A DNA stretch of 64,000 nucleotides from NCBI RefSeq assembly GCF_964199755.1, contig NC_133896.1, positions 97,712,200 through 97,776,199 on the forward strand, written 5' to 3'. Source of the DNA: Larus michahellis. Taxonomy: Eukaryota; Chordata; Aves; Charadriiformes; Laridae. Position 1 is the first letter of the stretch. Every line of letters starts with the position of its first letter. Under the pieces are notes generated by a model, which was given only the letters and a program-made list of their open reading frames with translations, did no database searches and was not told the origin of the DNA. Of the stretch, positions 23,898 through 55,896 are shown piece by piece. A program made the translations under genes and the position numbers.

Positions 23898-24232
23898 GAG
23901 AATCATAGAATGGTTTGGGTTGGAAGGGATCTTGAAGATCACCTAGTTCCAACATGGCAGGGACACCTCCCACTAGACCAGGCTGCTCAAAGCCCGATCC
24001 AGCCTGGCCTTGAACACTTCCAGGGATGGGGCATCCACAGCTTCCCTGGGCAACATGTGCCGGTGTCTTGCCACCCTCAGAGTGAAAAATTTCTTCCTGA
24101 TATCTAATTTACATCTACCCTCTTCCAGCTTGAAGCCATTACCCCTCGTCCTATCACTACATGCCCCTGTAAGAAGTCCTCTCCAGTAGGCCCCCTTCAG
24201 ATACTGGAAAGCCCGATGGGACCTTCCCTGGA
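23898..24232 (-). mobile_element. CR1 LINE 3' fragment beside a CpG island
   Basis: Antisense CR1 tail beginning agaatcatagaatggtttgg and running about 335 bp through the conserved 3' UTR and ORF2 end. It is 5'-truncated where the (AAAT)n tract and CpG island begin at about 24240. Divergence is low to moderate. Confidence 0.93.
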
Positions 24233-24262
24233 CTAGGGCTCAGGGGAGTGCAGCGGGAGAGA

Positions 24263-27189: not shown

Positions 27190-27195
27190 TTTATT
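27190..27195 (-). promoter_or_regulatory. Candidate polyadenylation signal of the SPIRE-like gene
   Basis: AATAAA on the minus strand, about 230 bp beyond the stop codon at 27422. Further minus-strand copies occur at 26675-26680 and near 26755, so the 3' end may be alternative. Position is the only evidence. Confidence 0.4.
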
Positions 27196-27421
27196 TTTCC
27201 CAAAGACACAGACAAGAATTAAAACAGCTCTAAAAACCACAATGCTTTATAATACTTCACAATGCATAAATACTAACTGTGCTTCCTGCTTAGACTAGCC
27301 AGCAGGGCGGTCTTTTATTCAGGCCTTTATAGGTCTTTGTAGGTGCATAAAGCGGTTTCATTTACTTCAGGTACGGAACAAGTGACAGGAGAGATGTATG
27401 GTAGAGTCATTCCAGTTTGGT

Positions 27422-30400
27422 TCAAGGCCAGGAAATTCTCCTGAGAGGGATGCTCTGCTGCTGACTGGAAGCCATGTTCAACAGATACCGCTCACATCGC
27501 ATACAGATGTCTGCAGTCAGCCAGTCTGCCATGGTCCCTGCGTAACAGCACAGAGGCTGTGCTAGGCAATGGGGTTCCAAAATAACAGGTATACTGGAGT
27601 GGGAGAGGGAAAAAGAAAAGCAGGAAAGCTGACCCAGATTTCTGTTAGCGGGTATGGTGCTCTTCCACCCTTCCCCCACACCTGATCCAACACTGCTAAG
27701 TGATTTAGCTAAATGCATGAGTTCAACAGAGCAGTCAACTCCGCTTAGGAAAGCTACTAAGCACCAGAACAGCTTCACTTAAGACACCTTCTCTCTATTG
27801 ACAGTATGTCAGCCAAAGACCTAACAGATATCTGTGGTTGTTCCAAGGTTATGGCTGCATCCTTATGCTGCAGGATTTATTTTTTTTTTTTTGCCATTCT
27901 GAAGTATGGCAGTAATGCAGTCACTCAGACCTCTTCTGCAGCACCTGCATTGTAAGACAGACCAAACCACTGCCCCACACAGTTAACTTCAGTGGCCAAA
28001 AATCAGGGGCAGTGTTCACTACTGAAGTACAAGCCTTTGAACCAGAAATTGGTGTGACTATTTACTTTGGCTACATTAAAGAATGGTTTCAGAGATAAAA
28101 GATACCTGTTCCCCCAGTGGAATGTATAACTGATTTGGAAAGACGAGAACAGATAATGCATGTTTCAAGACCTACGTATTGCACTTATACCCACAAGGTC
28201 TATCTTTTCCACCCAGAACTCTTTTTGAAATAGTTCCCTTTCTGTGGACAAAAAGGAAAGGGTGTCTGTGTGTGTGGAGGGACTGAGAAACCATTTGTGG
28301 CATTACTCTTCAATCCATTATACCTCAGACCATTAGCATAGTTTATTTCTAGGTATAAAGGGGCTACTCCTGGGTTGTAGTGACAGACTCACAGCTGTGG
28401 GGGACAAAATATAATGGGGTCTCGAAATTCTCATATAAATTTAAGCTGTCACAAGGAACCATCTATATCTGGGCTAATATAGACACTTCTGAATCCATAT
28501 CAGACACCTGATAGCTAAAAAGCAAAATGGATTTCAGAGAACCTACACGTCCTCACTTTTGGTCATCTAAAATCCACAATACTTCCAGAGAACTCTAGAC
28601 TAGCTAGACCAGTGGCTAAACCAGTCATTCAGCATAACATTCAGCTGACCAGCATACTACTACATATTGTTGTCTGCATGTTTGTATATGCAAGTCTACA
28701 AGTAGCTTGTAACATCTTTCAAAGTAAAAGCAGAACATCCCTGTCCCAGCTTACCCAAAACACTCCCAGTGCTCTATTTCATGCAGCAACTCTGAGCTCT
28801 TCTGCTCTTGAGTAGCAGGGTCCTCTTCTCTGGAGAGTCTCAAAAGTTTTAAGAAGTGAAGTGGGAGATGTATACATGTTCTGAAGGGCATGGACATCTA
28901 GAATCACAACACAAGTCACCTGAGTTCTCACGGAAACACATCCTCCTCCTTACCAGGAAAATTTGCATGGCATGCAATTGATTTATTGGTGCACTTAGAA
29001 GATAGATATTAATGCAGTGAACTTCCTGACCCTTGTATAAATAGACCACAGAGTAATCCCAACCTCTTTATACAGGACGAAAGAAAGAGGAACTAGAGTT
29101 GTTTTAGCTGCATATGACAAGAGATGTCTGGGGCACCATGGCTCCTTTTGCACTTTGTAATATTCCCTCTTCTATTTTCTTGTCAACAAGCTAGAGGGTA
29201 GATTTGAGGTATCAGTGAGGTGAAGGAAAGCTTCCTAAGACTAGGTGAGGTGCAGGGGAAATAGAAAATGTAAAAAAAACCTCATATGCTGTTCTAAAGG
29301 TTAGACTTGCCTTGATGCAGCAGTCGCAGCAGACAACACTAAGAGAAAGAAGTTCCCAGTATTATCATTTAATTAAAGCTCAGCAGATACCAATATTGCA
29401 GCTAAGGGTGACTTTCCCAAGCAAGTCTTAATTTGTGATTGTGGCACAATCACTTGATGGCAAAGTGAGCAAGCTTAGAACTCCCCTATTCAGTTTGCTA
29501 GCCCTCTTATTTATGCTAGTTTAGACCATCTGAAATGTGTCAACATCCATAGCTTGAAGGCTTTATCTGCCAGTGCCCATTATTTTTCACACAGCACTAC
29601 CATCAGACAGTTACTCAATTCCCAGTAGTTGTTTACTTGTTGCTTGTAATCAATTCAGTGCTTCACCACTGCTTCAAATAAATTTAAGTGAGCCTTACTG
29701 AGCCTGAAGTAACTCTTTTCCTCTCCCACAAACAGAAAACCTCTGACAAATAAGTGGATACAAGTAGGTCCAACTCCATTCCCAGTCACAGGGTCTGGAA
29801 TTCACTTTTCCAGTCCTCAACAGAAGATTCTGGTGAGGAGCCTCTCCTGGAATGTGCTCAAGCCCTTGACTGAAGTTAAATCCAACATTTCGAGCAAAAT
29901 GCAGAGAGTGATCTCTGAAAGAAATTAATCTTGCACAGTAAATTTGGTTATTGCTAGCTTAATACTAAGAGTTAAAATTGAGATACCACTTCAGAGGCAA
30001 GTTTTTCCACATCCTCTGCAGCTGTAGACACTTCAGCCTGGCTTGTGCAGTAAGGCAAAACTGAAGGGCTCAGCAACCTGTTCCTATCCAGTACTGCAAC
30101 CATTTGAATACTGAGTATTGTCAGTACTGTTGTTCTACTCTTTTCTCCCTCCTCATTCAGTTCTTTTGTACCAGCTCACCTGCTGCAGAGGTAACAGCTG
30201 TAAGGCCACTTAAGAAACATCTGCTTATGGCAGCTGAAACAGATCTGTGGAAAGGAAAGTTACTTGTGAATGCCAATGGGAAATATCTTTGTACCAACAC
30301 CATCTACTGCCTGCCAAAGAGCAAGCACACAAACCAGCCTTCTAAAGGCTTTAGATCCACATACAATAACAGAGGTCCAATAAAGGATAGCAAAGACACA

Positions 30401-33400
30401 GGAATTAAAAGCTAAAAAGGCAAAAAAAAGTCTTACTTGTAGGCCAGTGTTTTTATGATGCAGAGGTTTGGGGCAGCTGCCAGACAACAGGAGTTTAAAA
30501 AAAGGCTCTTGAGCAAACAATAGCTGTATTGTGCAAGAGTGTAACAGTAGCTAGTTAAGAGAGAGGGAAGAAGAGAGACATTCTTTGAGGTAGACTGCAG
30601 CAATCCCAAAGAGATTAAGTCAGGGCAAATTTGAATCCAATCCTGAAGCAAAAAATGAGTCATAAGGAAGCTGATGAGTCGCTTGAACTTTTTAAAAGAG
30701 AACACATTCATACACAGCTGGCAGTCAGAATTGATATTATCTTGAGAAGCAGAGCTTGAGAAAGCTAAAAAAACTTCAGCAGCAAGAACACAAAGAAGGT
30801 AAGACAGCCATTTTAGAATAGGCAGAGAGCACGCAAGTTAAAGCAGGGTCAGTAAGTAAGATGAGAAAATAAAAACATGGATTTAGTCTCAGTAGCATCA
30901 GACAGATTGTGGAAGTAGCATAGCTCCGCTAGCAGAACCCTTTGGCTCTGTCTATACTGCTAAATAAGTGAGGGCAAGAAGCTGACCCCTAAGCCAAGTA
31001 GCACGGACTTCCTCACATCTGTGTTGCAAAGGGCTTGTACTCACAATGTCTGCTCTGGAGGCTGCAACACTCCCTCTAAAGGGGAGGCTGAGTGAATAAG
31101 CCAGCAGTTCAGCAGAGTGGACAGCCAACAGTCCTGTGCTGTGGGTCATTCCCTGTCCCCCTCATCTCCCCAGCCTTTGAGTCCACTCAGCAAGGTGGTT
31201 TGAGTCAGCACAACTCAGATGTGGGAGCCTTAGTTAAGAGCCTTTGCTTCACTGTTTATCAGTACCAAATCCCAATTACTTTGTGATTTCAGAGCTGGCC
31301 AACATTCATAGCAGTCAGGTCTCCTAGAGTAGAAATAACAGACAAGAAGTATCAAGCAAAGGCTGGGTTACTTTCCAGGCAATTAAAATAGCTTAAGCTT
31401 GATTAGAAGCTATCACTGCACAGGTATCAAAAGATTTTTTTTACAGCTGAGGGCCAAACTCGGATCAGCTGTATCAACAGGGTAAGTTGAGGCAGAGAGC
31501 ACCTCAGTAGTTCAGCTCTGAGGGCCATGAAGCCAGCCAGCTTTTGAAAAGGCAAAGACAGCACAAAGAGAAGGAGAGGAAACATACCTTTGCTCTTGGA
31601 AAGACACCATCACTATCTCGGTGGAAGAAGCCTTGCCCTTCCAGAACCATCATTGCATATCTGGTTTCAATCATCTCAGCAATGGTTGGTGATGGCCACT
31701 TGGTAGAAAAGGGACAGTCCTAATTGAAAGACAGAAGTTAAGCATCAGAGAAAGCTGAAGGAAGCAGGTATTTGGGGAAGTCATCCTCAAAATAGGTCCC
31801 AAAAGGCTCAGGAACATTTGTCCCCAAAACTCAATTTTGCCAATGATGGGGGCGGGTATCAGTTGGCTCTTTGACAATAGTAGCAGAGGATCTTCTACAA
31901 GGCCTTTTAGTGGTTGCTATAATTTGCGAGCAGCTTCCTGACACCTCAATTAAGGAAACAGGTCCCTTGGTCACCACAGTAGTTAATACCATCTCCAGAG
32001 CCAGTCTCTGCGGAATTCTACCCTTTGGTACAGACGACAGCACAGATGGCACCCTGGCCCCTCCTAGGTACAGGATCCCCTTCCACAGCACAACGCTCTC
32101 TCGCCTTCTCTTTCCCAAGACCGACTAGCTCCACACAAATGGCAGCTATGGTCTGGTTGTTGACCAGGAAAGACAACAGTGCTTTTATCCCCAGGTGGGG
32201 AGCCCAACCCACCTGCATCCCCCACCACACTGCTGAACAAAGAGGTCATACAGAGTTATGGTTAGTTTAGAGACTTGCTGGGGATGGGGCAGGGAGGGAA
32301 ACAGAAGGAAAGGAGGCAGCAAGGACACAACACACCTTACCTTGTTGGGGCAGAACAGGGCAAGGCCATGATTCAGAAGGTTGCATGGAAACGCACAAAC
32401 CCCAGCCTTGTTCCCACAACAGTCATTCAGAGCCTGACGACTTCAGTACTGCATACATTTAGAAGTCGCTGATACTGTGCTATCTACATTTTGTCAACTA
32501 CTTGTTCCCTTTACTGCAGCTTAAAGAATGCTTGTGAATATATCAGAATCTAGAAAGAATGAGGGGAGACAGAGAAAGCAGGACAATCCCACTGCCAACT
32601 ACAGTCTGCTTGAGGAAACCTTGACAGACACTTTCAAGTAATGCAGTGATATCTTTCTCTTCTTGTACGAGGAACAACTCTACATCGTACCATTCAAACT
32701 AGGAAGCCTCCACAAGGACACTACAGCATCCAATATTTTCTTAAGCTGTCTCCAAGGAGACAATAATATCCCAACTTAAGGTCAGTATACAATATGGCCT
32801 AAGATAAAAACCACAGAACTTGCTTACTGCTTGCATGAGGATCAAGGTGCAAGCTCTGCACCATTACCAGATGTATCAGACTAGGCTTGCTAGCTGACAT
32901 GCCGGACTTACAAGTTCCTTGCTTTGAAGGTCTCTCTCTAAAGATTTGGACCTTCCTCTGTAAGGAGGCAGCTGCTGTTGACCAGCATTCAGGAAACCAT
33001 TAGGTTTAATGTCTCCTAGTGTGGGTGCACTCATGGGAGGACATGTGCAATTTGCAGCAAGACCTGGAAAGGAAGAGATAGATTTAGGGTGCAGAAAGCC
33101 AGCTGGCAGCTTTAAATATTCACCCCAAAAGCTGAATGCTCAAGAGCTCTACACTGCCTTCTGAAGGTAGCAAGGCTTACATCTCTCCCCCTCAACCCCC
33201 ACCAGCCTAGATCACAAATAGCAGAGGTTACAGTAATTTGCTTGTCAGTGGGCAGTGATAAGAATTCATTAGCACCATTTAGTTTAATGAAATCAAGTGA
33301 TCCACTTTCTACTTGAACATTCAAACCACTCATTTAGCTTTTACTGTGAATTCCAGTTAGGTCTTTGGGGACATGCTATCATTGTTTTGAAGCTGCAGGA

Positions 33401-36400
33401 GCTATACAAGCTTCAGTCAACTGCTGAGGAATGGTCTTCTAAGGGCACCTCCCCAGACTCATTAGTAACTGTTGGAGCTCCTCCTGTAAAATGTCTTCAG
33501 GTGATCAGGGAGAAAGCATACAGTGAGCCCAACCTAAGGCTTTGGGAACCCAGCAGGCCACTGACTGTACTTTGTCACCTGGTTTAGACATGCAGCTAGA
33601 AGTACACTGACCTGTGCTGTTGCAGGATACTACCGATGACCTGGTTAAGGCAAGCCAGGTGCTGGAAGGCAGCTTGGGAGTGGTTTCCTGTAGACCAGAG
33701 GACAGGATGTTCTTAAGCTACATACAAGAGACACCAAGCCTGCTTCCTCAGAAGTGCTGCTGCTAAACAAAACCCAGGATACCCAGGACTGACCAGAAAC
33801 ATTCAAGGCTTAGCTGGAAGCGCAGCTGAGAGAGAAATCAATGTGGTGCATTTAGCAACTTTATATTTCAAGAGGTAATAGCAAGTTAATTCCCCCCACA
33901 ACCAGGAAGCTCCAACTAAGATAGTGAATTTTCAAATGTATCTGTTCTCTCTCTCACTCAAGCTCAATACGGATATACTAGTCCCAAAGTTTCATCTATT
34001 CACGAACCAACTTCACAAAATCCTCCCTATACAACATTGGAACCATTTTCTTGGCTCCAACTGACATGTAGCAACACTGGCAACAGTTCAAGAGACTGTG
34101 CCCTACTAACCCAACTCAAACCCAATGCTGTACCTCAAGAACATTGTTCGTAGCTTCTCTAGAGAAGCAGAAAACAAATTTGATTATATTAGTCTCCATA
34201 TGAAGGTCCTTCTATTATAGCAGTAATACGTCAACCACAGGGTTCTCAAATGCTGAGCATTCCTACAAGGAGAACAGACTTGTGCAAATACAGTGAATAT
34301 TTTCTGCTTTTATTAATTCATATCTGTTTTCCTCAGTTAAGCAACTGCATTTCAGACAGAAATGTTTACAGAAAACAGATTCCTGTTTGTATGCCAGTGC
34401 ATCTGTGCTAGACATGATGTGTTAGAGCTTAAGTTCTGTTCCACAGAATTTCTGAATATGCTCAGGCTAAATCCCAGAACCAAGCAGTCAAGCTTTTAAT
34501 ATTCAAGCCAGGAGTTAAAGAACCCAAGGACTATGTATCATGGGTTATTGAAGAATTGTGCTCCTGAAATTGCTCCACAGGCAGAAAGAGTGGGAATTCA
34601 CCAGTAAAGTTGCTTCCTGAAAATAAATCATGAGGTTTTCCTTTCACAAGCTCACATACCACGTCAAATGCAAATATATCAATACATCTAGCATCAAATG
34701 CCTCACTGTAAGGTAAGAGTGGGAATAGTTCTGGCCCATATTGGCCAAACTCCCATGCATATCAAAACTTCTGCAGGATCTAGTTTTAAGAGACCAGAGC
34801 AGACGTTGGTTCTATAGGCTGCAGTCGTGCCACAAAAAGAAGTGTTTAAATATGGCATGAGCTTCTGTAGAGGAAAGGACTTCAGTGAACTTAATAGTTC
34901 CACATTTGTTCACTTTTGAGAGACAAGACTGCCCACATCAGGATTTGAACTGGCTGTTCCAGGCTGTGGATGTGCAGATCTAATGCCTGAAGTACTTGTG
35001 CCTCTCCACAGTCCGTCAGTCTAAAGCCTTACCTGAACTGGTCCCAGCTGCTCTGTTGTAGCGTTGACATTTTTAAATTTGGTACTGGCATCTTGGAGAG
35101 TTAAGAAACTATTGCTTGGAGATTTCAAGGCAATATTTGGTGTCACAAGCGTTTCTGCAGGGGAGAGGGGGAACAAAAAAAACCCCACAAAAACCACAGA
35201 GAAGATAAGATATTGTGCTGTGACAAGAAAATGACTAGTTTGATACCCACACATCAGAATCTAAGATTTGGATGGACTTTGTCCTGGCAGTTACATAATC
35301 TTTTAGTTTTATGTGATGGTGAAAATCCTGTTCTCTCACTTAGTGGACAGAAAAATCTGAACACCCCTAAAAAAAAAAAAAAGAGTAAGCTGAAACATCT
35401 TTTGAGTCTTAATAAGTCACAAACAGATATTCTAGAAAGAACTATCCTTATGCCATACCACCTCTACCAACACAGAATTTGCATTCCCACCTCTCTTGAA
35501 TTATACACGCTATGGGAAAGATAAGTGGGCTTTCATTTCAAAAGCTATCCATTATTTTCAGTCAACGCTGACTTCACTTGTATGCTTGATAGGTCACTTC
35601 ATAGCAGGTACCTTTGGGCCTGCTCCCATATTCCCTTGCTGGTGATGACCGAAGCTCCTGTGGTTGTTCTGTTTCTGCCATGAGCTGTTCCTGACAGCTG
35701 GCCTCCCACGGCACATGCTCTTTCAGCTTCCTCTCCAGCACCTGCAGGCAAAGCATAGCACCAGAAAGAGCCAGTGGACGAAGCGAGAAGACCACTGGTG
35801 AGAGAACTATTCCTTCAGCAACAGCATTGTTTTACAAGTGCCTCTCATTCAAGAGGGCACTGGGCCTTGCACACAAGAGACACATGAAAGAACCTTTTGA
35901 TAATGCATAGGAGAATACTTTAGCAACTCTCAAATTTGAAACTGAGAACTTCAGGAGTACTTTCAGGACCAAAAAATGTTCCAAATGGAAGAAGCAGAGG
36001 AGGAAGTAGGGAGACTGATCATCTTCATCCTATGAAGATTTCACCTCCCATTTTCCTAGCCCCGTGTTTTGGCAGGAGGGCCTACCCAAAAGTTAAGTGT
36101 GGTTAATATATCCCTCTCCGAAATCCAAACCAGTAGCTAAGACATTAGTTCTATATTCCTAGAAACTGTCCTGTCTACTCCCGAATTATCTTGTTTTGCT
36201 ATCATTAGATACACCACCAGGTCACCTACAGGTTTTAGACAAGGCTTCAGAACAGCTACATCAGCTTCAGGGATCTTGTGGTTTTGCTCGATGATCACCT
36301 GAAAGAGCAGAAATGATGCTTAAGCAATAGTTATTTCTCTACTCCTGGTACACCCTCCCAATCAGTGGCACAGTGAATGAGTCAAGTCAGGATTTGGGAA

Positions 36401-39400
36401 TGGGAGAGGTGGAGAAGGCATAACAAAACTGAGTTAGGAAGTGTAGAATGATGTTTACTTACATGGGGTTTTGGTAGAGACAGATTTGCTGTGGCAAGAC
36501 TAGAGGCAATCAGCAGCACTGCACAGCCCTTTGGGGCTTGCACAAGAAAGATACAGGCTTCTAGCCCCAGCAGCTCATGAACTGCTCTGAGGAAACTGGA
36601 AAACATTGTACTCAGATTTTAATGTCAGGAGTGATCCTGACAAGCACCATGGTCACATCACATTCATCAGTGAGAACTCAGCTCCAGGGAGGAGAGTAAT
36701 TGAATGGGTTAACAAGACTGTAACAAGAACTGTAGCAGCAGGCAGCTGTATGCATAAGCTAGAGTCCCAGAGACTGGCTTACAGCCCTACATGAACTACA
36801 AACAATAGCAAGATAGAATTGCAGGGCAGGTATTCATGTGAAGCAGGCTGTCTCCCTCATCAGGCCCTGTGCTTGCTGCATAGGGGAGAACTGACAAAAA
36901 AATCAAGTTGCACATGTATGTCTTTAGCTGCCTTGTTCACTCGTTCTTACTTTGAGGCTATGCCATTTGCTTTCCCTGTGTGTACAGCTTCAGAACACGT
37001 GGGAGTGCAGGTAGAAAAACGCTACAGCTTCCCACACTAGCTGTGCTTTCATTCATTTGCAAATTGGACTACTGTTTGCTAGAGAAGCTTTAAAATAGCT
37101 TTGCAGATGGGGAAATTATCATTTAAGAGCCTTCACAAAGACCTGAGCCCCGCACTCTATGCTTTCTTCTAGCATTTCTGACCACTACTCTTCAAACACT
37201 TTTGTGCTTCTCCTTGACCACAGAAAAAAATATATAATAAAAGAAAGAAAGAAAAACAAAAAGACCCAGTTCATTCTGCCACCTTGAGTTACAGTTCTGT
37301 ACTGCACAGTGAATTGATAAACAGTACATTGCAAGGAACACAAGTAGTTATGATATATTGTCTCCTTTCCACTACTGTTCATTTATATATCTGTCAAGAT
37401 ATCATATCCGGAGAAGTGTCACAGCCTTATCTGAAGTCTGGAGCCACAGTCAAGAAAAGCGAGAGCTGGGGTTTTATAAAGGTGCATGGTTTAGCTGAGG
37501 GTTTTAAACCCCCTGCACTCTAGCAGCACCAACAAGGAGAAAAAAAGGATGATGTTTAGTGCGGTATGCAAAGTTTTCACTTTTTAAAATATCACTCTTT
37601 ATTACAAGTAGAGTTGTGTCTCATCTTCTGCCAAGATGTCTGTTTGCAAAGCAGGCCAATGCCACAAAACCGTATGCCAGTGTTTCAGATCTGCTCATCA
37701 TTCCCAGCTCAAGCTGCAGCAAGCAAACAGCATCACAAGCCTTTAGAGGCACCCCAGATATTTTTGTATCTGGTCATCTTCACCAACTGTACATGTTGCT
37801 GGAAGCCCCCACCACTTGAGTCAGCACAGCAGCTGCCCCGGAAGGGGCTCAGCTTTTTTTACCCTGACAAAACTCCTGCAGTAGCTTGTGTACACTGCCT
37901 AGAGGCCTCTACCTGAGGCAGAGCAAAGGACTTGCTCAAAAGTGCTTTTGCACTTGCACACATCCCACAACATCCAGGAAGGTGAGGAAACTAGCAAGAG
38001 ATGCCAGGCACAGCTCAGCTCAAGGAGCCTGAGCAGACAGATGTGTCCAAGGTGGAAAGCATAAGCAGGCAAGGGACTGTTTCATGAAACTGTTGTGTGC
38101 AAGGCATCATAATTGCTCCAGGGAAGGGAGTGGTTGACCACTGGAGGGGGAAAAAGTTTACCATCCAGCTTCATGAAAACGTTGCTGTCCGTGAATTAAA
38201 ACGTTACTGGGAATGAAGCACTTGGGTGGACAAACAGGGTGATCTAATGTTGAGCTGCAGCTGAGAGGGAAACACAGACACTTCTGGACTTGGAAGTACC
38301 TTTGAGAAAGACAGGCTTTTGGAGAAGCCATCTCAACAAAAGTTGCTTAGAAATGCAGTGGAACAGGTGGTTTCAGAGTTGTCCATTGATTCTAGTCACT
38401 CACCTTCCGAAGCGTGTACCTTTTGTGCTGAATATCATCCAAAAGTAATTCATAGGGAGAGCGGACACTTTCTTTTGGAGGCATGTGATGCTGTGGTCGC
38501 TCAGTGGCCTTGCGCAGCTTCACACCATTCTGCAGTTCCTGGATGACACTGGGCCACAAGGATGCCTAGGAGAAACCGGTGAGGGCAAAGTCAACAGCTG
38601 GATAAAATGCACAGAGCAGCATTCCCTTCCTCCATGTCATACGGCACACTTAGCAATTGAACTTATTCAGAAACACTAAAGCATGTCCTTAACTCCCCCT
38701 TCAACTCACTTGCAGATCAGGGCACGGTACCAGAACAGAGAATTGCTTCTCTTTGCAGAAATTAATTTATAACAAGGGATCTGGGAGCTGGCTTACCAGG
38801 TTCATTCCCAAATTTTGTCATTAACTTTATGAATATACTTTAGCAAAACACATCTGCTGCTGCCAGGTAGCTAGACCCATTTTCTTGAATACCTACTTCC
38901 TGCAAATGCTCCAGGTGCCAGAGTTTTTTCATATTATTGGACCCTAGGAAACACTAGAAATGAAATCCCAAATCATTAAAATCCTCTGAACTTTCAGAAA
39001 CCAAGGGCTGAAGGGCCCACAGACAAAAGAGGAAGGCAAGGAGAAAGGGATCTCACACTGTAACCATCACAGCAGTGTATGTTAGCAGTTTCAGCCTGGA
39101 GACACAAGCTGATAACTCTGACATCTGCTCATCCTGTTCCTGTATTAATATCTGAGGATGCTCAGACATGCAGTATAACCCAACAAAAGTTAAAGACAGA
39201 AAAAAAAATAATCAACTCAATATCATGTTTAGACAACACTGTAATGGAAGTGCAAAGTCAACCACTTATCTGGATCCCAAAGGCAAATTGAGTAAGAACA
39301 AGCGATTGTATTATAAACAGAGAAAGGGAAGCAAAACATTTCAGAAAACTGCCTCAGAACAAAGCTTCTGACTTAGACTTCTTTTCCTTTTCCACTTACA

Positions 39401-42400
39401 GTATGAAGCATCTTCTCTTAACTTATCCCTTCAGATATTTTGGTATAATATCAGAAGAGTCTTAGGCAAGCTCTGACTGATGGCTGTCTTCAAGGAGATG
39501 GATTTTTTTGTTGGATTGTTTTAGTGTGTCTTTGGTAGAGTCATACCTCAATTCCAGAAAACCAGAACTCTCAGAGAATGAGCATATACTAGCCTTATCT
39601 CCTAGGCTATATTTATTGTATAGGAGAACACACAAAAGTCTCTGGGCAAAGTGGTTAGTATTAGAGACCTTGGAAATAGCTTATCCTGAGCCATTTGCAC
39701 TTTCTAAAATTGTATTTCAGATGGTGACAGAGCTTAACTGAAAGATATGACCTGAAGCGAGACTTCTGTACTGTAACATTGACACATTACTTTCAGGACA
39801 AGAATTGCCTTCAGCTGGCCATTTCAGAGCAACTTGTACACCCAAAACATTTTTCCGGTGTAGGCGACATCATTATCACTCATACTTTTCTCTCCCTACT
39901 GACTGGATCACTGCAATTATTCTACTTGGGCAATCCCATGTATTGTCAAACTCCAGATAAACTTCCCACACCTGTGCAACACAATGCAAGATGCCACAAC
40001 ACTCCAAAACCAGTGAATTCAGTTCAACAGTAAGACAGCTGTGTTCCTAAGAGGTCTCACTTCAAGGTAAAGATTGTCTTGTGACATGTACAGATAAGGT
40101 CTGCTGAAACTGTACAACCCTGCACACCATCAGGCTGTGATCTCTGTTTCAGATGGCCTGTTTTGGAGCAATCAATGTGAAAAAGTATGGTCCACAGAGA
40201 GACTAGCTGCTTGGCACTGCTCAAGGCATCAGCTCTAATCTGTCGGATCCCAGTGAAGTTGGCAGCCTGCTTATTCTAAGCTCAAGAGTTTGTCAGAGCA
40301 ATGCAATCAACTGGTTCTTAGGGACTTGGAAACTAGAGGCAGAGGATTTGCAACAGACATCCTGCTTTTGGAATTCATGTCTCCTGAAGGAACAGGGGCC
40401 AAATACACTGGCCTTCAGGCCACACGGCAAAGCCCATGTATTTATTCATGTATTCCCTGCAGAAAAGAGCTATAGCAGTTGATGAGTTTGTGGTTTGAGA
40501 TAGCCTGCCAGTTTATTTTAATAGATCACAAAATTGAAAATATGCCCAAACACACATTTCACAAACATTTTCATACGAATAGTTTGAGCATGCTTCAAAG
40601 TAAGTGCTATTTAGACAAAGGGAGCGAGTCCACAAGTCTCTCGGGGCTTGCCGTTTGTCTCCACAGACTCCAGACTACAGTGCATTTGTTTATGCTGGGC
40701 AGAGCTCCAGCCAGAAGAGCTATTTGTTTCTGATCAAGCCCTGACTGTGTAGGGCCTTGAAAAGAACAGAATAAGTTGCTTTCTCTGCCCCAAACACACA
40801 GTCCGAGATCTACAGAAGGACACACTGGAAGGACAAGAAAGGCAGTGAGAAGATGGTAGGAGCTACATCTCCAACCTCACCCTCCATCACCTCTTTTGTT
40901 TGAGCTGCTGGAGCTGCACAACCACAAAGATGGACAGAGCTACTGGCCTTCAGCCCCCTCCAGCCCTGACCCAGCACAGACCCCACATAAGAGTGAACTT
41001 GTCCACCCCAGTACTACCGCCAACAGAAGAGTTTTCTGGGAGTTTTCAGCCCAGCTACAAGAAAGGAACAGATTGCTTTTGGCAGGTGTGAGTTCCTGCC
41101 AAGAGCTGGAGGTTTGGGGCTCATTTGCAGGAAGAAACAGCCTGAATAACTACTTGTGGACACTTATTCCAAAGACTGCCTCCAACTTCATTTTTAGAAG
41201 TGGTTTAAGTTGAACCACAAAGACACTCTTTGTGTAGAATAAATGTCCACATAAGGTTAACACATGAAGTAGTTTAACTTCAAGTTCACTCCCCAGCTTG
41301 CTTTACAGACCAGTCTTTAACTACTTAAGCTCTTGAACAACCTAAGAAGTTTTGTTTGTGTTCAAGCTGTACTTTTCATAGAGGAGTCAATGGAAAGCCT
41401 CAGAGAGCCAAGGTAGACAAAAAACCCCAAGCACCCATAATGAAGGAATTAAATCTCTCACCCAATGTTTTTCCTCCTTCTGAAGGGGATTTTCCACCAA
41501 ATCTTCCACATCCATTTTTCTCAGACTCTGAGAAGCAAGCACACGAGGTCATTACCTTGCACTGTTCAGTGATTTCCCATCTATCTAGTATAAATTACTG
41601 ATGTTAATCTGAAAAGCATAGATGCTCCAAACACCCAAACCTTCAAAAGGTACTAATATGGTGCAGACAGTTGCTTTCACATCGTGAAAACAGACCTTCA
41701 GCTAGGTACTCCATTTCTAGTGCAACGGGAAGGTTACTTTAGAACCAAGTGAGTGGGTGAAGGCAGAAGGAATAACAGCTAAGGGGTGATCCCAAATGTA
41801 CCTCTTTGGAGGTCTGGATAATGGTCACAAGCTTCTGAAGTTCCATATATTCAGTAAACAGACTACTACAGGTCACTTCGTAATGGCTGGTAGCCTCAGA
41901 AGGCCTGGACGAGTGCTCCTCGCAGGCCTGAAAGAAGTGCAGCTATTTAAGAGAGATCTTGAAATGAAAAAATATGGTAGGATGGAATAAAGCAGGATTC
42001 AGTTTTCTCAATCCATGGTTAAAAAACATCTTCCTCACAGCCCCTTTCTATCTTTTTTGTTTTTCTGTTGCAGATGCATAGGAACAAAGAAGCAAAATGT
42101 CCAGTCTTATACATACAAGAATGTAAGTAGCTGTGTAATTTCTCTCTCTCATTCTCCATAAGGTGTGCTCTGGAGAATACCTGGAAGAGGAAGTCTCCAG
42201 TGCAGACAAAGCACAACAAAATGCAGCAGGTAGAGTCCCTTTTCCTGTTCTTTTCCCCTGCCCTGATCAGACTAAGGGATGGGAAGCTCCTCATACCTTT
42301 CAATTATGGCTGAAAGGAAAATACTTGTTTTAGTTGAGACATTCAATTCCCAACTCTTGCAGAAACTGAATACTATGGACAAGTGACTTTTTTGAATATC

Positions 42401-44433
42401 CATAGTCTTCTAGGTATCCAATTTGGAGACTATGTACAGAAGGACTTTGTAGGCACAGCTGTGTGAGAGCCATGCTCAGTCTTCCTTCTTAATTCTTTCT
42501 CATAGTCACTTGTGCACACCTAAGATGGTTTTGCCTTTTCCCTCTGATGGGAAAGCCACGTGCTCCCTCTATGTCTTCCAATAAGATACCCAGATTTTTC
42601 CTGGAAATGGTCTTGCCCCTTGGTTCACAACATTGTTCCATCTAAAGCTGCTATATTTACTAAGTAGGAAGAAGGAAACCTTGATAACATCCTGCAGGGT
42701 GACTGCTGGTTTCATTGCCTCATCGTCCAGTTTCAACATAAGGCACAGCAATTTCTCCAAGGGATCACTCAGTTCTCGCTCCACTTGGCTGTCGATTCCC
42801 CAGTCCAGGGCTTCATAGATCACCACTCCCAAGAACTCCAGCAGCTGCAGACAGAGACCAAGGAAGCAGTGCAGCACAAAGTGTTGTGGAGAACTTCACA
42901 GTTGTCACTTCCCAGCCACGCATGTACCCTCCACTGCCCCTTAGGGCTGAGCACATATCTCAGGATGAGAAGGGCCCAAAAGGCATCCAGATGCTCATCG
43001 CATAGCCTGAGATACTCCCTAAACAAGCTGTTTCAAGATTTTTAAATGGCACCTAGCCATTAATCTAGCACCTCTAAGTTCTCTATTATTAAGATAAAAA
43101 GACTGTGGGCTACTCCTCAGTAGGCAGCGTCTGTGCACGTTATTTCCCAGCCCCATTGTCTTACTGGAGTTCGGTCCTAAGATTTTGTTTCACTTTACAG
43201 ATTGCAGAGGACAGAGTCACTCTCACAGGGAACAGCAAATTTAAGCACCTTAATAATTTCCAAAGACATCCTTATCTCCTTACCTGGCCTTCTACTACAG
43301 TAGGATTATATCTGCACATGTACGAAGGTGAAGACACAGGCTTACCTTGTCCTCTGACTGCTGAATGCTGCCAACATCTGAAAGGGGAAAAAAAGAGGGG
43401 ATGGAGAGAAAGACAAGTGCATAGGCATTGATAAACAGCTTTTAGAATCCCTCTCGAGAGAGAAACAGGAAGAATTCTTGTTAATAAAGAAACAAACCCC
43501 TCTGACTAAGGTCAGTCTCGCCTGGGGAAAGTAGGCCTATATTTGGGTACTCTTGGAAAGCAACACAGAATACTCTTATTGTGAGCATTAGCCCCAAATT
43601 AACTGCTGCTGGATACTTTTTTTGTTTGCTAATAGGTATCTAACCACAAGGAAGTCACTGGATCTTTGTTTTTATTCTTTATTACCCGCTCTTGTCCCTG
43701 AAGGGTCGGCCTAGCACTGCCTTCTGCAGCAGTGCAACTAAGCAGTGCTTAAGACAAAGCTTGTTGCCACTTGCTGACTACATGTAGTGACAAAAAAGGG
43801 AAACTGTCAATCATAGATATGTCATGAGAGTTGCTGTAACAAAGGAACCATACGTTGGAAGATGAACAGAGCAGGGCATATAATAACATCTCAGACTATT
43901 TATTTCAAATCACATAAGTGGTAACAAACTTTCATCCCAGCTATTCCCTAGAAACAAATGACTCTCTAGAGCATTATTAGAAAAATTAATAGGCCGCACA
44001 TTTGCATTACCACTCATCTGCAGTCTTTTGCAATGAAGTATAGGCAGCAGCATAGCCTCGTGACAACACACGGAGAGAGAAGAGGTAAAAAAAATAAAAA
44101 AGGCAGGAAAAAGAATATCTGCCCACTTTGTCCCCACATTTCAGCCTGGAATAGGAACAGCCCTTGGCATGCACAGCTACCTACGCTCTTACCAGACTTG
44201 TGGTACACCTTGAAGGAAGCAGTACCGTCAGCATGGATAAAGATGCTTCCAGGACCCTTTATGAACACAGAATGGAGTGGTGGGTGCAGCCCCATAGCCA
44301 GCTGCTCCATTTTACGGCAACACTGAAAGCAGATAGCCCAGGCTTGCTCCTCGCTTATAGGATGTTCAAAGCACCTCAGAATCTCGGCTAGAGAGACCTT
44401 TGTGATTCTCTGCTCACACCGTGGAGACTCCAT
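27422..44433 (-). CDS. Divergent SPIRE-family actin nucleator (KIND, WH2, Spire box)
   Basis: SPIRE proteins nucleate actin through tandem WH2 domains, bind formin tails through a KIND domain, and reach vesicles through a C-terminal Spire box and mFYVE finger. Minus-strand exons read by eye: 44433-44193, 43377-43346, 42844-42680, 41927-41802, 38565-38404, 36298-36230, 35741-35612, 35154-35033 (continuous frame, 349 codons), then 33063-32912, 31719-31588 and a last exon from 27593 or 27537 to the stop at 27422. KIND shows SEEQAWAICFQCC, ALDWGIDSQVERELS and HYEVTCSSLFTEYMEL (residues about 14-188). WH2-like segments are VIQELQNGVKLRKA and SPYELLLDDIQHKRYTLRK (189-242); the next two are degenerate. 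A Spire-box-like TIAEMIETRYAMMVLE is at 31719-31588, and the tail has DWLTADICMRCERYLL. The ATG at 44433 has A at -3 and G at +4. One exon between 35033 and 33063 is implied by phase. mFYVE exons were not assembled. Family membership is firm; orthology is open. Confidence 0.85.
27872..27893 (+). repeat. Poly-T tract
   Basis: Uninterrupted T run of about 16 bases, in sense a poly-A on the minus strand in the last intron of the SPIRE-like gene. No retroposon body is recognised next to it. Confidence 0.8.
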
Positions 44434-46077: not shown

Positions 46078-49000
46078 GGTGGCTGCCGGTGCTGCGGCGG
46101 CGGTGCGGCATGGTCGGCAAGCGGTTGTCGGGGAGGGGCCTGGCCGCCGAGGGACGCGTCCTGCGGGCCGTGCTGTACGTGTACCACAGCAGGCTGCTCC
46201 GGCACCGGCCCTACCTGGCCCTGCAGCAGGTGAGGAGCGGCCCCGGCCGGTCGGCAGGGAGCCGGCAGCGGGTCACCGGTCCCAGAGGGGCACCCGGGGC
46301 ATCATCGTGCGCACAGCGTTTTGGAGCTGGGGCGTTTTTGTCGGCTGTGAGGCTCCGCACAGTTGAGTGGATCTGCTGGCTCTGTGCAGCCAGTGCCATT
46401 TGAGCTTTCCAGCCATGGGCGGCCAAGACTCGGTCTCTTATATTCACACCAAGACCTGAAGTAGTTACAATTACATACTTTTTGAATGCATCAGCACTAC
46501 AGAGATTTGATTTTCAATTAATTGTAATAATGGGAGGGGGGAAGAATAATTCTAGGCTACTCTATTAGGCCACGTTCTGGTTTAAGATGAAAAGTGAAGT
46601 GCTTACTCGTTTTCCAGTACTTTACTGGATTGTCAGTATCTTCAAATAACTGCTTTGAAATAAAACAGGAATTTGTTCTTACTCTCGTGGTTTGTTTATG
46701 TATTTTTGTTCTTGAAAGCCAATACCACAAGCCATTGTATACTGCTTGAGAAACCACACAGCACCAATTAACAATGGCTTACTCCAACTCTTCACTTAAT
46801 TCCATGTTCGCAGTAGTGTGATAAAGGAGTCTCTTTCATCATAGTGCAGATATAGGAACATACCAGAGCTTTCTGTCACACAAACCTGCTATTTGTGCTG
46901 TTAAACTGATAAGGGGAAGGTATCACTTAAGATAGTGATAGTTCTTAGAAAAAGACTCTCCCCCCTCTTAAAATACCAGTCAAAGGAGCTTTCTTTTTTT
47001 CCCTAGGTAGAACAATGCTTGAAACGCCTATGGAAGATGAACTTGGTGGGCTGCATTGAAACTCTGGCAGGACTGATCCCCAAGTAAGTGTCACGATCCC
47101 ATATACTGGATATATCTATTAAGCAGGCCTGCAGAACTAAAGGTGGGGGGAATGCTACATCACAACCATCTTCTCATCCTTGTATCAACACAGGAAGAAT
47201 ACACCCCAAGCCCATGCAGAGTGCTTAGTTCCCAGCCAGCCTATGCTGGAAACAGTGGCTCTGAAGGTATTGGGAGGTTGCAAGCTCATTCTCCGTCTAC
47301 TGGACTGTTGCTGTAAAGCTTTTCTGTATCCTTTTTTCACCATGAACACATTATTACAGTTCACCAGCAGCACCTCTTGAGACCAGAACTAGGTCTGCTG
47401 TAGGCCACGTATTGCTGATGGACTCAACCGTGCAATTCATATGTGCAACTTGGAGTTTCTTTGATAGCCAGACATCTTATTTTCAAGTTATTATGTAGGA
47501 ACCTCAGGCTGTTGGCTGGCTGCTGCTCCACCCTTGAGCAACCCAAAGTTTGGATGTTTATCTCCCAAATTATCCAGAATATTCCCCTGTGAATTGCCTC
47601 TAGTTGGTGTGTTCAGCAAGTCTCATTATATACTGTTTATTTTTTATCCTTAACTGGTCTAATCTTCAGCTTGTCCGTTCAACATCTCTGCTCAGAAGAA
47701 TTCATACTTTTGAACACTGTGGCTTCAGGGTTGTTGAGCCGGCTATGGTTTGTGTGTTCAAAAGTCTGTCTTGTTTGTTGTCTGTTTGACGTGCCTGTCA
47801 GGGAGAAGGGCTTGTAATTAGGCCTTGTTGCTGAGTGAGCTTTATTTGGTTGGGGAGAGGAGGAGGTGTGTGGGGGGGTCCCTCCATCCTTTTTGGACTT
47901 GATTCTAGCATCTGAAAAGTTGTGTAAGTGGAGAGAGACCTCTTACATGCTGTTTTGGAAGGCTTTGTTCTTCACTCGTAGCAAACTTTATGTAGCACTA
48001 ATAAAATCACAGTGTTAACGCCAGCCTGACATAAACATCTGGTACTTCTTGCAGCAAGCAGTAAGTCCTGCCTCATGCTGAAATAGAAAGGCTGGGATAA
48101 AGTTCTGTAATACTCCTGAGTTTTCCAGGGAAATCATTGTTCTAGTCTCAGTACAGCAGAGCAACGCCAAGAAAGTAACTGCTGTCTGTAGCTGAAAGAG
48201 TAACAGCATTGTGTAGAACTCAGTAAAGCCTTTTTTGGCACAAGGAATCTGTCTGCCCAGTAAACGCAGAGCAGGCGATTGTATGGCCTCAGTGCTAGTA
48301 CCGTTGTCCTGAGTTGGTACAGGCTGCTTTGGGGGGAAGTCCTCTTTGTCAAATGACTTGGATGTGACCTTAGAACCTGCTAAGTCCCTGGTGTGGCACT
48401 CCACAAAGTTCTAAGGAAGCAGAGGGGCCCCCTGATCAGGGATTTACTAGTCAAGTCACTCCTGTGATCTGACCTAGAAGAGTTCCTTAAAGCTCAGACT
48501 AATATCAAGGAAAGTACGGAGTGTAAAAAGAAGCTTGTCTTGAGGGGGAACAAGGAAAAATCAGCTTGGAATCTCTTCCATCAGTGCTTCCGCTTGAGCT
48601 GAAGGTAGTTATTCAGCGAGCACGAGGTTTTGCTAGAGGAGACTCCATGCCTTTGTGTCTTCTCTCTTCAGGATTCAGCACAGGTGTGTACTGCAGAGCC
48701 TCATTTCCTTGTATGGCGTATTGTCGACATCACTTCATCTGGTATCTGAGACCCAACAGATGCCTTATATCAAGGGGTTTACCTTCCCTTCTGATATCAG
48801 TAACTTCCTTGGAGTGAATGTTTCTTCTGAGGTGAAGAAGCAAAAGGCTAGAATGCTTACAACAAAAAAACCTACCAGCTGGCTGAAGAAGCTCTTTCCT
48901 ACAATGCCAGAGGCAGTGTCAGAGGTGGGGAAAAAGAGACGTTTTGCGACCTGCACGAGTGCTCTGAAAAACCGTAGCATCCCATGCCCTGTGGACATTG

Positions 49001-51363
49001 GAGAGCCAGTTCTGGTGACCAGAGCCAGCAGAGGTAAAGCCTTGTGCCACAGTGCTACTGGTTATCTCAGAGACTGACTGCAGCTTCTGCCCAACAGAGC
49101 CAAGCACTTTTACCCACAGAGTGCGATTCTAGTACAAACCCCCCTCTCCTGACCTTGGAAGAGGAAGTGAATGCTGCATGTACCCTTGCCTTTGTAAAGC
49201 TGTGGATAATTTCAGTATTGTGAGGCTTTTTGGTTTGTTTGGGTTTTTTTGTTTTGGTTTTTTTTTAAATGTGGCATAGCCTGAAGAGAAGCAGGTAAGG
49301 AATACAGTATACAGGTCCTGTAAATAGTCATTTATATTTTCCTGCCTCTATATAGATGGGGCCCAAGGATAGTGAGGGAAGCTACAAGCACTGTCTGTAA
49401 TCTGTGCAAGAGTAGATAAGTTTCTAAGTACAGGATGCAAGCATCCTGTGCGTGCTGGTTCTGGGCTGTGCCCAAGTCGTCCCCTGCAGTCAGGGCTATG
49501 GCCAGTGACTGCAGGCGTCCAGGTGTTTGCGTGAAGCTTTTACACATGAAGCTATCTGTAAGTCTCTGCATCCTCTTCATCCCTTGCCAGCTGCCATGGG
49601 AGATGAGCGCAGCCCCCTTGAGTTTGCCTGGAAATGCTGAGTACAGGTGTGAGCCTGCTGAGGCGGCAGGAGATCTGAGCGCTCAGCAGGGCAAAGCACT
49701 GCAGCATCTCTGTGCTAAGACTGAAAACTGTCTTTATTTCATAATAGGAACTCTCCTCTCTCTTTGTAGGGAAGCACCTGGGGTTTGATGTGAAGAGCTT
49801 GCTTAGACCATCCAGACCTCTAACACAACAGGTTTGTATGGTGCCATTTTACGTATTTTATTTTTTTTAACTTTAAAGACACTAACACTCAAAACATGAT
49901 ATCCCTGATGGAAAATGTCTTCTTTCCCTGCCTTATTTTTGCTTGTTCAACATCCCAAGTTGGTGTGGAAGCTTTGCACTGAAAATCACTACTAATTTCT
50001 GCTTAAAAATTTGAGCATTTGTTGGTATGTCAAGTGAAATGACCAGAGAGCAAGTCAGTAGTAGACAGGAATACAGGAACAGCCAGAAATTGTACTTATC
50101 TGCCGCCTCTTTTTGTATTCCACAAAACAAGACTGCTCTTCCACTTTTTCCTTAGGAAATAAGGCCTGTTCTCCCAAAAACCTTAGTGCTCTGCTCCTCT
50201 CCAGCAGAGAGGATCAGGCCTGTCACATTTTTAAAAGACTAACTGTTTCTGTTACTCTGTTTCAGGGTATAAGCATTGCATCAACACCTTTTAAAGCAAA
50301 ATCAGCATCACTTTCCTCTCATATAGCAAAATCGCAGCATACTGGAGCTCTTGTACAGATGGTCCAAACAGCTTCGTCGTTTGGGGAACTGTCAGAGGCA
50401 CTCAGAAAAGCTATTTTGTGGTGCAAAGGCAACAAATTCAAATCGGAATCTTATTTTCTGCGTAACAAGTTGTTGAAAAGTAATCGGTTGCACCATGTGG
50501 AGGCTCAAGGATGCAGGTAATTTTATGTGGGTGCGGGGTTTCTGGATCTGACACTTTACATTTTAATAAAGTATTTTGCTAGTGTAGAGAAATGCAGTGG
50601 TCTAACCCACTCTTTTTAAATTCAAATGGGATCACTAGTTCAGGTCACTGGATGCTCCGACATGAGCATTTTGTTTAGCTTCAGTCATTTGTGAAAGGAT
50701 TTAAAAGGCTAATAAATGCATAAATGCTTTAGAAGGAGGGTGAAAATGCACCTTAAATCATGTGCATGTCTAATGGTAATGATTATCCGATGCAAGGGGT
50801 GTCATCTTTCTTCAGAATGCCCTGACTACCGTTGTGCAAGGTGCTGTTGTATTTCCTTGGTACGACAAGGAAAATGGTAGAGAAGGCCAATAACTAAATC
50901 TCCCAAAACAAAATAACACTTGAGCAGCTGATAAAGTTATATTTTGTGCACCTTCCTTCCCTTAAGGTTGAAGAAAAAACTGTGCTGTGTCAAAACATCT
51001 GTCCGTAAATACCTCCTATATGGGTCACAAAACACACGCTGGCCAAAGCAGTACCTCAGGGCACGGTTCTGTCGAAGGAGGATCAAATCATCCGCACGCT
51101 TGAAGAGAACTTTGAAGACTGTTCGGCAAAATTCTTCTCAGCTTTTTGGGGTCTGTGAGAACAGTGCATCCCCTGTGCTCCCAGCTTACCAGGATGGGCC
51201 TCCGAGTCGTGAAGGACGTTCCAATGCTGATAGAGCGTCTGTCAGACTAAGCACAGCCGGGACCACTAAGCAGCTGCTGCTGGAAGGAAGCCCTGGCCCT
51301 GCGTGGGAAGAAGCTACTGAGAACATGGATATTGATTCTATTTTTGCAGCAATGGGTGTCTGA
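45815..51363 (+). CDS. NEPRO: Nucleolus and neural progenitor protein, nine exons, complete
   Basis: NEPRO (human C3orf17) is a nucleolar protein linked to RNase MRP and pre-rRNA processing; in mouse it keeps neural progenitors undifferentiated downstream of Notch. Coding exons: 45815-45905, 46075-46229, 47007-47083, 47194-47325, 47670-47747, 48672-49033, 49770-49831, 50266-50516, 50967-51363. All have AG/GT borders and compatible phases, giving 1,605 nt and 534 residues; the human protein is slightly longer (about 567). Diagnostic matches to human are VEQCLKRLWKMNL, LILRLLDCCCKAF, SVQHLCSEEFILLN, PYIKGFTFPSDISNFLG, KLLKSNRLHHVEAQG and the C-terminus MDIDSIFAAMGV. The start was chosen because its frame runs into exon 2 and the N-terminus resembles human. 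The Lys/Arg-rich second half suits a nucleolar protein. An out-of-frame upstream ATG overlaps the start. It is convergent with TAF13. Confidence 0.97.
45974..46000 (+). repeat. (CGGT)n tetranucleotide repeat in NEPRO intron 1
   Basis: About six perfect CGGT units inside the short first intron of NEPRO, within the CpG island. Likely length-polymorphic. Confidence 0.9.
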
Positions 51364-55197: not shown

Positions 55198-55400
55198 AGC
55201 CGCCAGAACCCGCCGTGTCGCTTCCGAGCCGGGGGGAAGAGCTTCCGCTTCCTCAGCCCCGCCCCGCGGCCGCCGCCGCCGCCGTGACGCCCTGCCGTGG
55301 AGGGCGGGGGCTCGGGCGGATCGTGCCGGTGCGCGTGGGTTTGTCGTCCGCCGCTCCGCTCGCGCCTCAGCGGTGCCGCTGCCCAGCACAAAGGTGGCCG
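54830..55400. promoter_or_regulatory. CpG island over the TAF13 promoter and exons 1-2
   Basis: A dense CpG and GC block covers TAF13 exons 1 and 2 and roughly 200 bp upstream. It stops where the CR1 copy begins at about 55420. Its plus-strand side could also start a divergent transcript toward the candidate exons after 56600, but nothing in the sequence proves that. Confidence 0.75.
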
Positions 55401-55419
55401 CAGTTGTGGGCTCCCCGGT

Positions 55420-55896
55420 TCAAGAAGGACAGGGAGCTGCTGGAGAGGGTGCAGCAAAGGGCTACAAAGGTGATGAGGGGACTGGAACACCTCTCTGATG
55501 AGGAAAGGCTGAGGGATTTGGGTCTCTTCAGTCCGGAAAAAAGACAACTGAGGGGGGATCTTACCAACACTTATAAATACTGAAAGGGTGGGTGTCAGGA
55601 GGATGGGGCCAGGCTCTTTTCAGTGGTGCCCAGCGACAGGACAAGGGGCAATGGGCACAAACTTGAGCATAGGAAGTTCCACGTAAACGTGAGGAGGAAC
55701 TTCTTTACTTTGAGGGTGGCAGAGCACTGGCACAGGCTGCCCAGGGAGGTGGTGGAGTCTCCATCTCTGGAGACATTCAAAACCCGCCTGGATGCGTTCC
55801 TGTGCAGCCTGCTCTGGGTGACCCTGCTCTGGCAGGGGGGTTGGACTAGATGATCTCCAGAGGTCCCTTCCAACCCTACCATTCTGTGATTCTGTG
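55420..55896 (+). mobile_element. CR1 LINE 3' fragment upstream of TAF13
   Basis: About 475 bp of CR1 in sense orientation, from caagaaggacagggagctgc to the terminal ATTCTGTG octamer repeat. It is 5'-truncated and close to consensus, hence fairly young. It starts about 220 bp upstream of the TAF13 start codon, at the edge of the CpG island, so it may sit within or just beyond the promoter. Confidence 0.95.

Follow-up and report, generated by a model that had tools for sequence, protein, structure and literature searches.

A third SPIRE gene, very probably SPIRE3, between BOC and NEPRO in Larus michahellis

The window (the whole stretch of 64,000 nucleotides analysed here, positions 97,712,200 to 97,776,199 of contig NC_133896.1 of Larus michahellis) carries a divergent gene of the SPIRE family, which raises the question of whether it represents the species' ordinary SPIRE1 or SPIRE2, a recent duplicate of one of them, a decaying gene or a third paralogue. 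An earlier note on this DNA favoured a third paralogue and considered that it might have been overlooked. That birds and reptiles have a third SPIRE is known: according to PMC11231147, published in 2024, they carry SPIRE1-3, and SPIRE3 was lost in mammals and euteleosts. Judged from its sequence, the gene in the window is very probably this SPIRE3, the third vertebrate SPIRE, and is complete with 14 exons and 560 residues between BOC and NEPRO; the tie to chicken SPIRE3 is made by description.

The gene lies on the minus strand, and the limits given at the outset (27422-44433) are exactly its stop codon (27422) and its ATG (44433). Exons (Table 1) were chosen by eye, in part for phase compatibility. 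All 14 modelled exons are open with consistent phases, and 12 of the 13 introns are GT-AG, the remaining one (after E12) being GC-AG. The earlier remark on open splice phases therefore holds, whereas its number of exons (eight) was too low. A processed copy is ruled out by the 13 introns, and a degenerate pseudogene is disfavoured by 14 exons that are all open. For random placement within the gene region, the single chances of the 14 exons to be open multiply to 2.9e-13, which is no clean probability because openness partly guided the choice of exons. In protein order, the parts are KIND, WH2-A, WH2-B, a shrunken WH2-C/D stretch, the APTL motif, a putative Spire box of weak similarity and a zinc finger, followed by a short tail, i.e., the domain order described before (KIND, WH2-like segments, APTL, Spire box, C-terminal tail) with a zinc finger in addition.

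Regarding the 3' part of the model, a start of E14 at 27537 was rejected (frame broken), and a start at 27591 was two bases off, the acceptor before 27593 matching phase 2. No additional exon was found between E13 and E14 by a simple splice-score scan restricted to exons of phase 2-to-1, which would suit the rejected 27537 acceptor. Reading E12 through to a GT donor was likewise rejected, as the micro-exon ends at the same place in SPIRE1 and SPIRE2. A further AATAAA/ATTAAA occurs at 27195, downstream of the stop.

Table 1. Features of the SPIRE gene and its neighbour, in window positions (Pfam matches of single exons in genome positions).
Feature	Positions	Strand	Content
E1	44193..44433	-	ATG and first half of KIND; donor (GTAAGA) in phase 1; Pfam KIND match G000:C1:97756387-97756596, 58.9 bits
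E2	43346..43377	-	32-base exon (DVGSIQQSEDK) joining the KIND halves; splice sites and phase 1-to-0 fit
E3	42680..42844	-	C-terminal part of KIND (LLEFLGVVIYEALDWG...DVIK); Pfam KIND match G000:C1:97754918-97755046, 41.9 bits
E4	41802..41927	-	End of KIND (ACEEHSS...TSKE)
E5	41462..41527	-	Linker exon (SLRKMDV...EEKHW), based on splice sites and phase
E6	38404..38565	-	WH2-A (LWPSVIQELQNGVKLRK) and WH2-B (PYELLLDDIQHKRYTLRK)
E7	36230..36298	-	Shortened; WH2-C helix of SPIRE1/2 absent
E8	35612..35741	-	Corresponds to the WH2-D exon, with a degraded motif (LRSS instead of LRPV); donor in phase 1
E9	32912..33063	-	Linker; its SAPTLGDI corresponds to the myosin V binding motif
E10	31588..31719	-	Weak counterpart of the Spire box (SPTIAEMIETRYAMMVLE)
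E11	30180..30244	-	Part of zinc finger (CFSC...CYLC)
E12	29311..29338	-	28-base zinc-finger micro-exon (VVCCDCCIK); GC-AG intron follows (AAG/GCAAGT)
E13	28755..28897	-	MSMPFRTCIHLPLHFL..., counterpart of SPIRE1 MRLPSKPYSTLPIFSL
E14	27422..27593	-	Final exon (TMADWLTADICMRCERYLLNM...RRISWP, stop TGA)
AATAAA polyadenylation-type signal	27314..27319	-	About 100 bases past the stop
NEPRO exons	46977..47781	+	PF14780 in three frames; neighbour in divergent orientation

Membership in the SPIRE family is indicated by the N-terminal KIND of the joined protein, which yielded an E-value of 7.4e-40 with the Pfam KIND model (the sole Pfam match at E<=1) and of about 2e-24 with the SPIRE1 structures PDB 3r7g/2yle. 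Comparison of the whole protein by hhalign with an alignment of SPIRE1 and SPIRE2 from the same genome gave a probability of 100 and an E-value of 1.1e-49 over 508 columns with 34% identity. In a tblastn search with an approximate query sequence, E1, E3, E4 and E6 yielded E-values from 8e-10 to 5e-5; the tail (0.049) and the zinc finger (0.13) did not surpass a spurious match at 46255-46103 (0.040). E2, E5 and E7-E14 (E11-12 jointly) were subjected to 2000 shuffles each, counting those that reached the true alignment score. These were 0/2000 for both E11-12 and E14, 1/2000 for E13, 4/2000 for E8, 105/2000 for E9 and 7/2000 for E10, the putative Spire box of which showed an identity of 6/44 and 8/44 to SPIRE1 and SPIRE2 (14-18%). 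The sequences of E2 (993/2000), E5 (841/2000) and E7 (1280/2000) were no better than their shuffles, and these three exons are therefore supported by their position, their splice sites and their phase; E2 has as its counterpart an exon with identical phases at this place in SPIRE2 of the same genome. A 28-base counterpart of E12 is found in both SPIRE1 and SPIRE2. The Pfam models WH2 and FYVE_2 did not match the window protein and gave no convincing match to SPIRE1/2 either. The former is no test here, because it yielded only an E-value of 0.56 in SPIRE1 and no match in SPIRE2 of the same genome; the latter is no test of the zinc finger, because none of the three SPIRE loci was among its 12 matches in a genome search. 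(Among viral contigs, a scan with E6 yielded 11 pattern matches, none of them a relative, and nothing was matched when phages were searched with the first exon.)

Three KIND loci were found in the genome (at least seven matches from at least nine scored candidates), namely the window and one locus each on contigs C2 and C4. The window protein as query gave 22 matches at E<=1 (13 in this gene, four at the C2 locus, three at the C4 locus and two weak strays). The C2 locus (111.99-112.12 Mb) is SPIRE1 by its sequence, its KIND being 83% identical to that of human SPIRE1; SPIRE2 lies at C4:1.500-1.506 Mb, with the nearest TCF25 match about 15 kb off. The gene in the window is thus a third SPIRE in a genome that also has SPIRE1 and SPIRE2, as is expected of SPIRE3. 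SPIRE1 and SPIRE2 were identical at 301/559 positions (54%), whereas the window protein reached only 168/492 (34%) with SPIRE1 and 156/471 (33%) with SPIRE2; its 560 residues compare with at least 675 and at least 649 in these two (both incomplete). The descriptions of the gene as a divergent third SPIRE and as the source of a shorter product are in line with these figures.

That the window holds the ordinary SPIRE1 or SPIRE2 of the species is hardly conceivable. It shares their domain order and, where read, their intron phases, and a KIND tree places it together with the C4 copy at 81% bootstrap (an unrooted tree of four sequences, which shows only the pairing of human SPIRE1 with the C2 copy). 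Both ordinary genes are located elsewhere, however, so that this reading is already refuted unless the C2 or the C4 locus is a contaminant, and the copy in the window has diverged much further, with a KIND identity to human SPIRE1 of 40% as compared with 57% for the C4 copy. A recent, lineage-limited duplicate of SPIRE1 or SPIRE2 is very unlikely: the tie to published SPIRE3 is by description instead of direct sequence comparison, which leaves some room for it, but identities of about 33-34% to both copies, below that between SPIRE1 and SPIRE2, would require an old split or extreme speed, and the third WH2 is missing as in the SPIRE3 of PMC11231147.

WH2-A and WH2-B were recognised by alignment with SPIRE1/2 (the letters A-D are those which we take to apply to the WH2 stretches of this protein). 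E7 lacks the AHEIILDFIRSR helix, and in our reading this stretch is the third WH2, which PMC11231147 describes as missing from sauropsid SPIRE3 in general. The residues of SPIRE2 reported to contact MYO5 are L408, L409, A411, L414 and M417, and the exchange L408A,L409A impairs or abolishes binding of myosin V. Alignment on the APTL motif, which is kept, places P, M, A, L and I at these positions, i.e., both key myosin-V-binding leucines are replaced. In the zinc-finger region (E11, E12 and E14) all four CxxC pairs are kept, as are eight of the nine cysteines common to SPIRE1 and SPIRE2, one being lost; particular cysteines would bind zinc. KIND-formin contacts in SPIRE2 involve Tyr106 and Phe103, plus a backbone contact at Arg119 (PMC10726347), and the formin-contact tyrosine, mapped by spacing, appears to be kept in the window KIND (IYEALDWG).

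The loss of WH2-C, the degraded WH2-D and myosin motifs, the shortened tail and a long KIND branch (1.26 substitutions per site) would also suit a gene whose frames are still open while constraint is relaxed in this lineage. Such decay is considered unlikely in view of the intact splice sites, the 14 open exons and the retained cysteines, and the loss of WH2-C is no recent decay, because the third WH2 is absent from sauropsid SPIRE3 generally (PMC11231147).

Taken as SPIRE3, the protein would be a vesicle-linked actin nucleator, with the C-terminal Spire-box/zinc-finger region serving membrane attachment, KIND as the docking site of an FMN-type formin, and actin monomers supplied by WH2-A and WH2-B. 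Nucleation weaker than in SPIRE1/2 is expected, because only two good WH2 motifs are present; the decay of WH2-D and the replaced leucines lead to the prediction of a weaker nucleator with weak or absent MYO5 coupling. A more speculative reading, much less probable than the assignment itself, is that SPIRE3 has been uncoupled from myosin V in this lineage and, as a vesicle-bound, formin-docking protein with only two working WH2 motifs, builds or sequesters membrane actin without a MYO5 motor; mammals would then have lost this division of labour between SPIRE3 and SPIRE1/2. The accessible text of PMC11231147 gives no description of SPIRE3 function and mentions neither the locus nor the degraded WH2-D nor the changed myosin-binding leucines. 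The altered myosin and WH2 motifs represent a testable functional difference from SPIRE1/2, and the full gene model and the neighbourhood are added here to what is published on SPIRE3.

The order at the locus is BOC - SPIRE3 - NEPRO - GTPBP8. Matches to PF14780 of NEPRO were found at about 46977-47090, 47171-47341 and 47653-47781 in three-frame Pfam scans, which covered 46-56 kb on the plus strand and 55-64 kb and 16-26 kb on both strands; at 55-64 kb and 16-26 kb only a sub-threshold match to NDC80_loop was obtained. In human, NEPRO and BOC lie at 3q13, and the interval that separates them is therefore where a mammalian SPIRE3 remnant could be sought.

Among known systems, chicken Gg-SPIRE3, compared by description only (PMC11231147), is alike in being a third gene beside SPIRE1 and SPIRE2 and in missing the third WH2. 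SPIRE1 of the same genome (the human KIND being PDB 3r7g) has in common with the window gene KIND, WH2-A/B, the linker APTL, the Spire box (a weak, putative counterpart in the window gene), the zinc finger, the 28-base micro-exon and the phases at the junctions read; it differs by four WH2 motifs, an acidic KIND insert, at least one additional linker exon and a longer tail, at 34% identity. SPIRE2 shows the same architecture and micro-exon and, like the window gene, begins E2 with a split D codon and ends E8 with ...KG in phase 1, whereas it differs by additional exons in the linker and by a myosin motif that is intact (LLKAPTLAEM), at 33% identity. The E3/E4 intron is absent from SPIRE2 here, whereas it is retained by both the window gene and SPIRE1.

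The gene was read on the minus strand as 14 exons (E1-E14, from the ATG side to the stop side), with frames, splice sites and phases judged by eye, and yields an open protein of 560 residues. The limits proposed in the earlier note, where no strand was stated, coincide exactly with the stop and ATG ends of this model. The 13 junctions have the phases 1,0,0,0,0,0,0,1,0,0,2,0,2 in order; 12 introns are GT-AG and one, after the 28-base micro-exon E12 of the zinc finger, is GC-AG (AAG/GCAAGT). AATAAA occurs ~100 bases past the stop. Collinear exon pieces were located by reading all frames and by a tblastn search whose query only approximated human SPIRE1; in this search the zinc finger and tail pieces scored no better than a spurious match at 46255 (E 0.040).

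Features of the SPIRE locus, its surroundings and the related loci (window positions unless a contig is named; tblastn with the approximate SPIRE1 query)
Feature	Position	Strand	Evidence
SPIRE gene	27422-44433 (C1:97739621-97756632)	-	ATG 44433, TGA ending 27422
KIND pieces	44391-44281, 42847-42737, 41924-41802	-	tblastn
WH2-A/B piece	38565-38401	-	tblastn
Zinc finger piece	30247-30179	-	tblastn, E 0.13
Micro-exon E12	29311-29338, donor 29310	-	
C-terminal tail piece	27532-27443	-	tblastn, E 0.049
NEPRO region	46977-51360	+	last exon, ending near 51360, placed by eye
GC-rich stretch	44-46 kb		59% GC
Second GC-rich stretch	54000-56000		58% GC
Repeat relic	23976-24239	-	RTRGNG...
Repeat relic	54339-54614	-	RTRGNG...
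Repeat relic	55584-55850	+	RTRGNG...
BOC side	C1:97625557		PF16625
GTPBP8-like GTPase	C1:97777498-97778253		family matches
SPIRE1 locus	C2:111.99-112.07 Mb		Pfam KIND
SPIRE2 locus	C4:1.503-1.506 Mb		Pfam KIND
SPIRE2 and TCF25	C4:1.48-1.51 Mb		

Regarding the joined protein, Pfam KIND matched at 7.4e-40 and no other Pfam family at E<=1, human SPIRE1 KIND structures were matched at about 2e-24, and the full-length alignment to SPIRE1/2 of the same genome had a probability of 100 (E = 1.1e-49). A shuffle test covered E2, E5 and E7-E14. E8, E10, E11-12, E13 and E14 were individually supported (score reached by 4, 7, 0, 1 and 0 of 2000 shuffles) and E9 weakly (105 of 2000); E2, E5 and E7 were no better than shuffles (993, 841 and 1280 of 2000), their assignment being based on where they lie, on their splice sites and on phase.

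The Pfam KIND search of the 1.41 Gb genome gave at least seven matches (nine candidates scored) at three loci, the window gene and one each on C2 and C4. The window protein gave 22 genome matches at E<=1: 13 to its own gene, four on C2, three on C4 and two weak strays. From exons read in stretches of both loci, the C2 KIND is 83% identical to that of human SPIRE1, compared with 57% in the C4 copy and 40% in the window gene. Judged by its sequence, the C2 locus is SPIRE1; a four-sequence KIND tree pairs it with human SPIRE1 (81% bootstrap), and the longest branch of the quartet is the window gene (1.26). The C4 locus is SPIRE2, from the LLKAPTLAEMEEM motif present in this copy and from TCF25 matches beginning about 15 kb away, a pairing which we take to hold in human. 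Over 13 exons, omitting E2 and extra linker exons, identities were 301/559 (SPIRE1-SPIRE2), 168/492 (SPIRE1-window gene) and 156/471 (SPIRE2-window gene); SPIRE1 and SPIRE2, both incomplete, share 49% in whole-length alignment. SPIRE2 and TCF25 are located on a 94.8 Mb contig, ~1.5 Mb from its end; as both are presumably on a small chromosome in chicken, this placement hints at a chromosome fusion in Larus michahellis.

The immediate right-hand neighbour is the divergently oriented NEPRO, matched by PF14780 in three frames, and the sole genome match of PF16625, which we take to be the linker domain of BOC, lies to the left. GTPBP8-like matches follow about 1.3 kb beyond the window; this family gave four genome matches, none of which reached its cut-off, and the remaining two are on C33 and C10. 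From these matches, with PF16625 taken as BOC, the order is BOC, window gene, NEPRO, GTPBP8; the human order is presumably GTPBP8-NEPRO-BOC. One GC-rich stretch separates the SPIRE gene from NEPRO; the second holds an open minus-strand frame with MADEEEDAPVSGE near 55.2 kb. The repeat relics share a similar protein reading, presumably resembling the end of a CR1-type element.

Between SPIRE1 and the window gene, 11 of 13 junctions were readable on both sides, with identical phase at 11/11, an agreement that carries less weight than this number implies because E2, E5 and E14 were partly chosen for phase. The two junctions flanking E2 agree in phase, read on one side only. In SPIRE1 the E6/E7 junction is displaced by two codons and the E9/E10 interval holds at least one extra linker exon; SPIRE2, also with extra linker exons, matches in phase. 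SPIRE2 lacks the intron between two KIND exons (E3/E4; about 7200-6838 of C4:1496000-1505999) retained by SPIRE1 and the window gene.

The earlier suggestion of an overlooked third SPIRE paralogue holds as to a third gene, distinct from SPIRE1 and SPIRE2, and fails as to its being overlooked, since PMC11231147 (Commun Biol 2024;7:832) reports SPIRE1-3 in birds and reptiles. The same paper describes SPIRE3 as apparently lost independently in mammals and euteleosts. A literature search for the name SPIRE3 returned only this paper, spelling variants adding three mollusc papers only. The window gene is most likely this published paralogue in one more species.

The product may be a membrane-bound, formin-docking actin nucleator. 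Nucleation needs at least two WH2 motifs according to PMC11231147, and the window protein has two good ones by alignment, WH2-A and WH2-B; its nucleation would be weaker than that of SPIRE1/2. Coupling to MYO5 would be reduced or absent: the linker retains APTL, but where SPIRE2 has L408 and L409 it has P and M, with A411 and L414 retained and M417 replaced by I. In SPIRE2, changing both L408 and L409 to alanine impaired or abolished myosin V binding (PMC5021521). The zinc-finger region retains four CxxC pairs, 8/9 of the cysteines common to SPIRE1 and SPIRE2, across three exons in changed surroundings, and the tail is short.

The WH2-C helix is deleted in E7, and E8 is a WH2-D counterpart without the LRPV motif; for sauropsid SPIRE3, PMC11231147 gives the third WH2 as missing or altered beyond recognition. 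In alignment to SPIRE1/2, the KIND domain retains the EEQAWA and IYxALD stretches, whereas their acidic insert is absent. SPIRE1 and SPIRE2 of the same genome have a 28-base counterpart of E12, but with GT donors.
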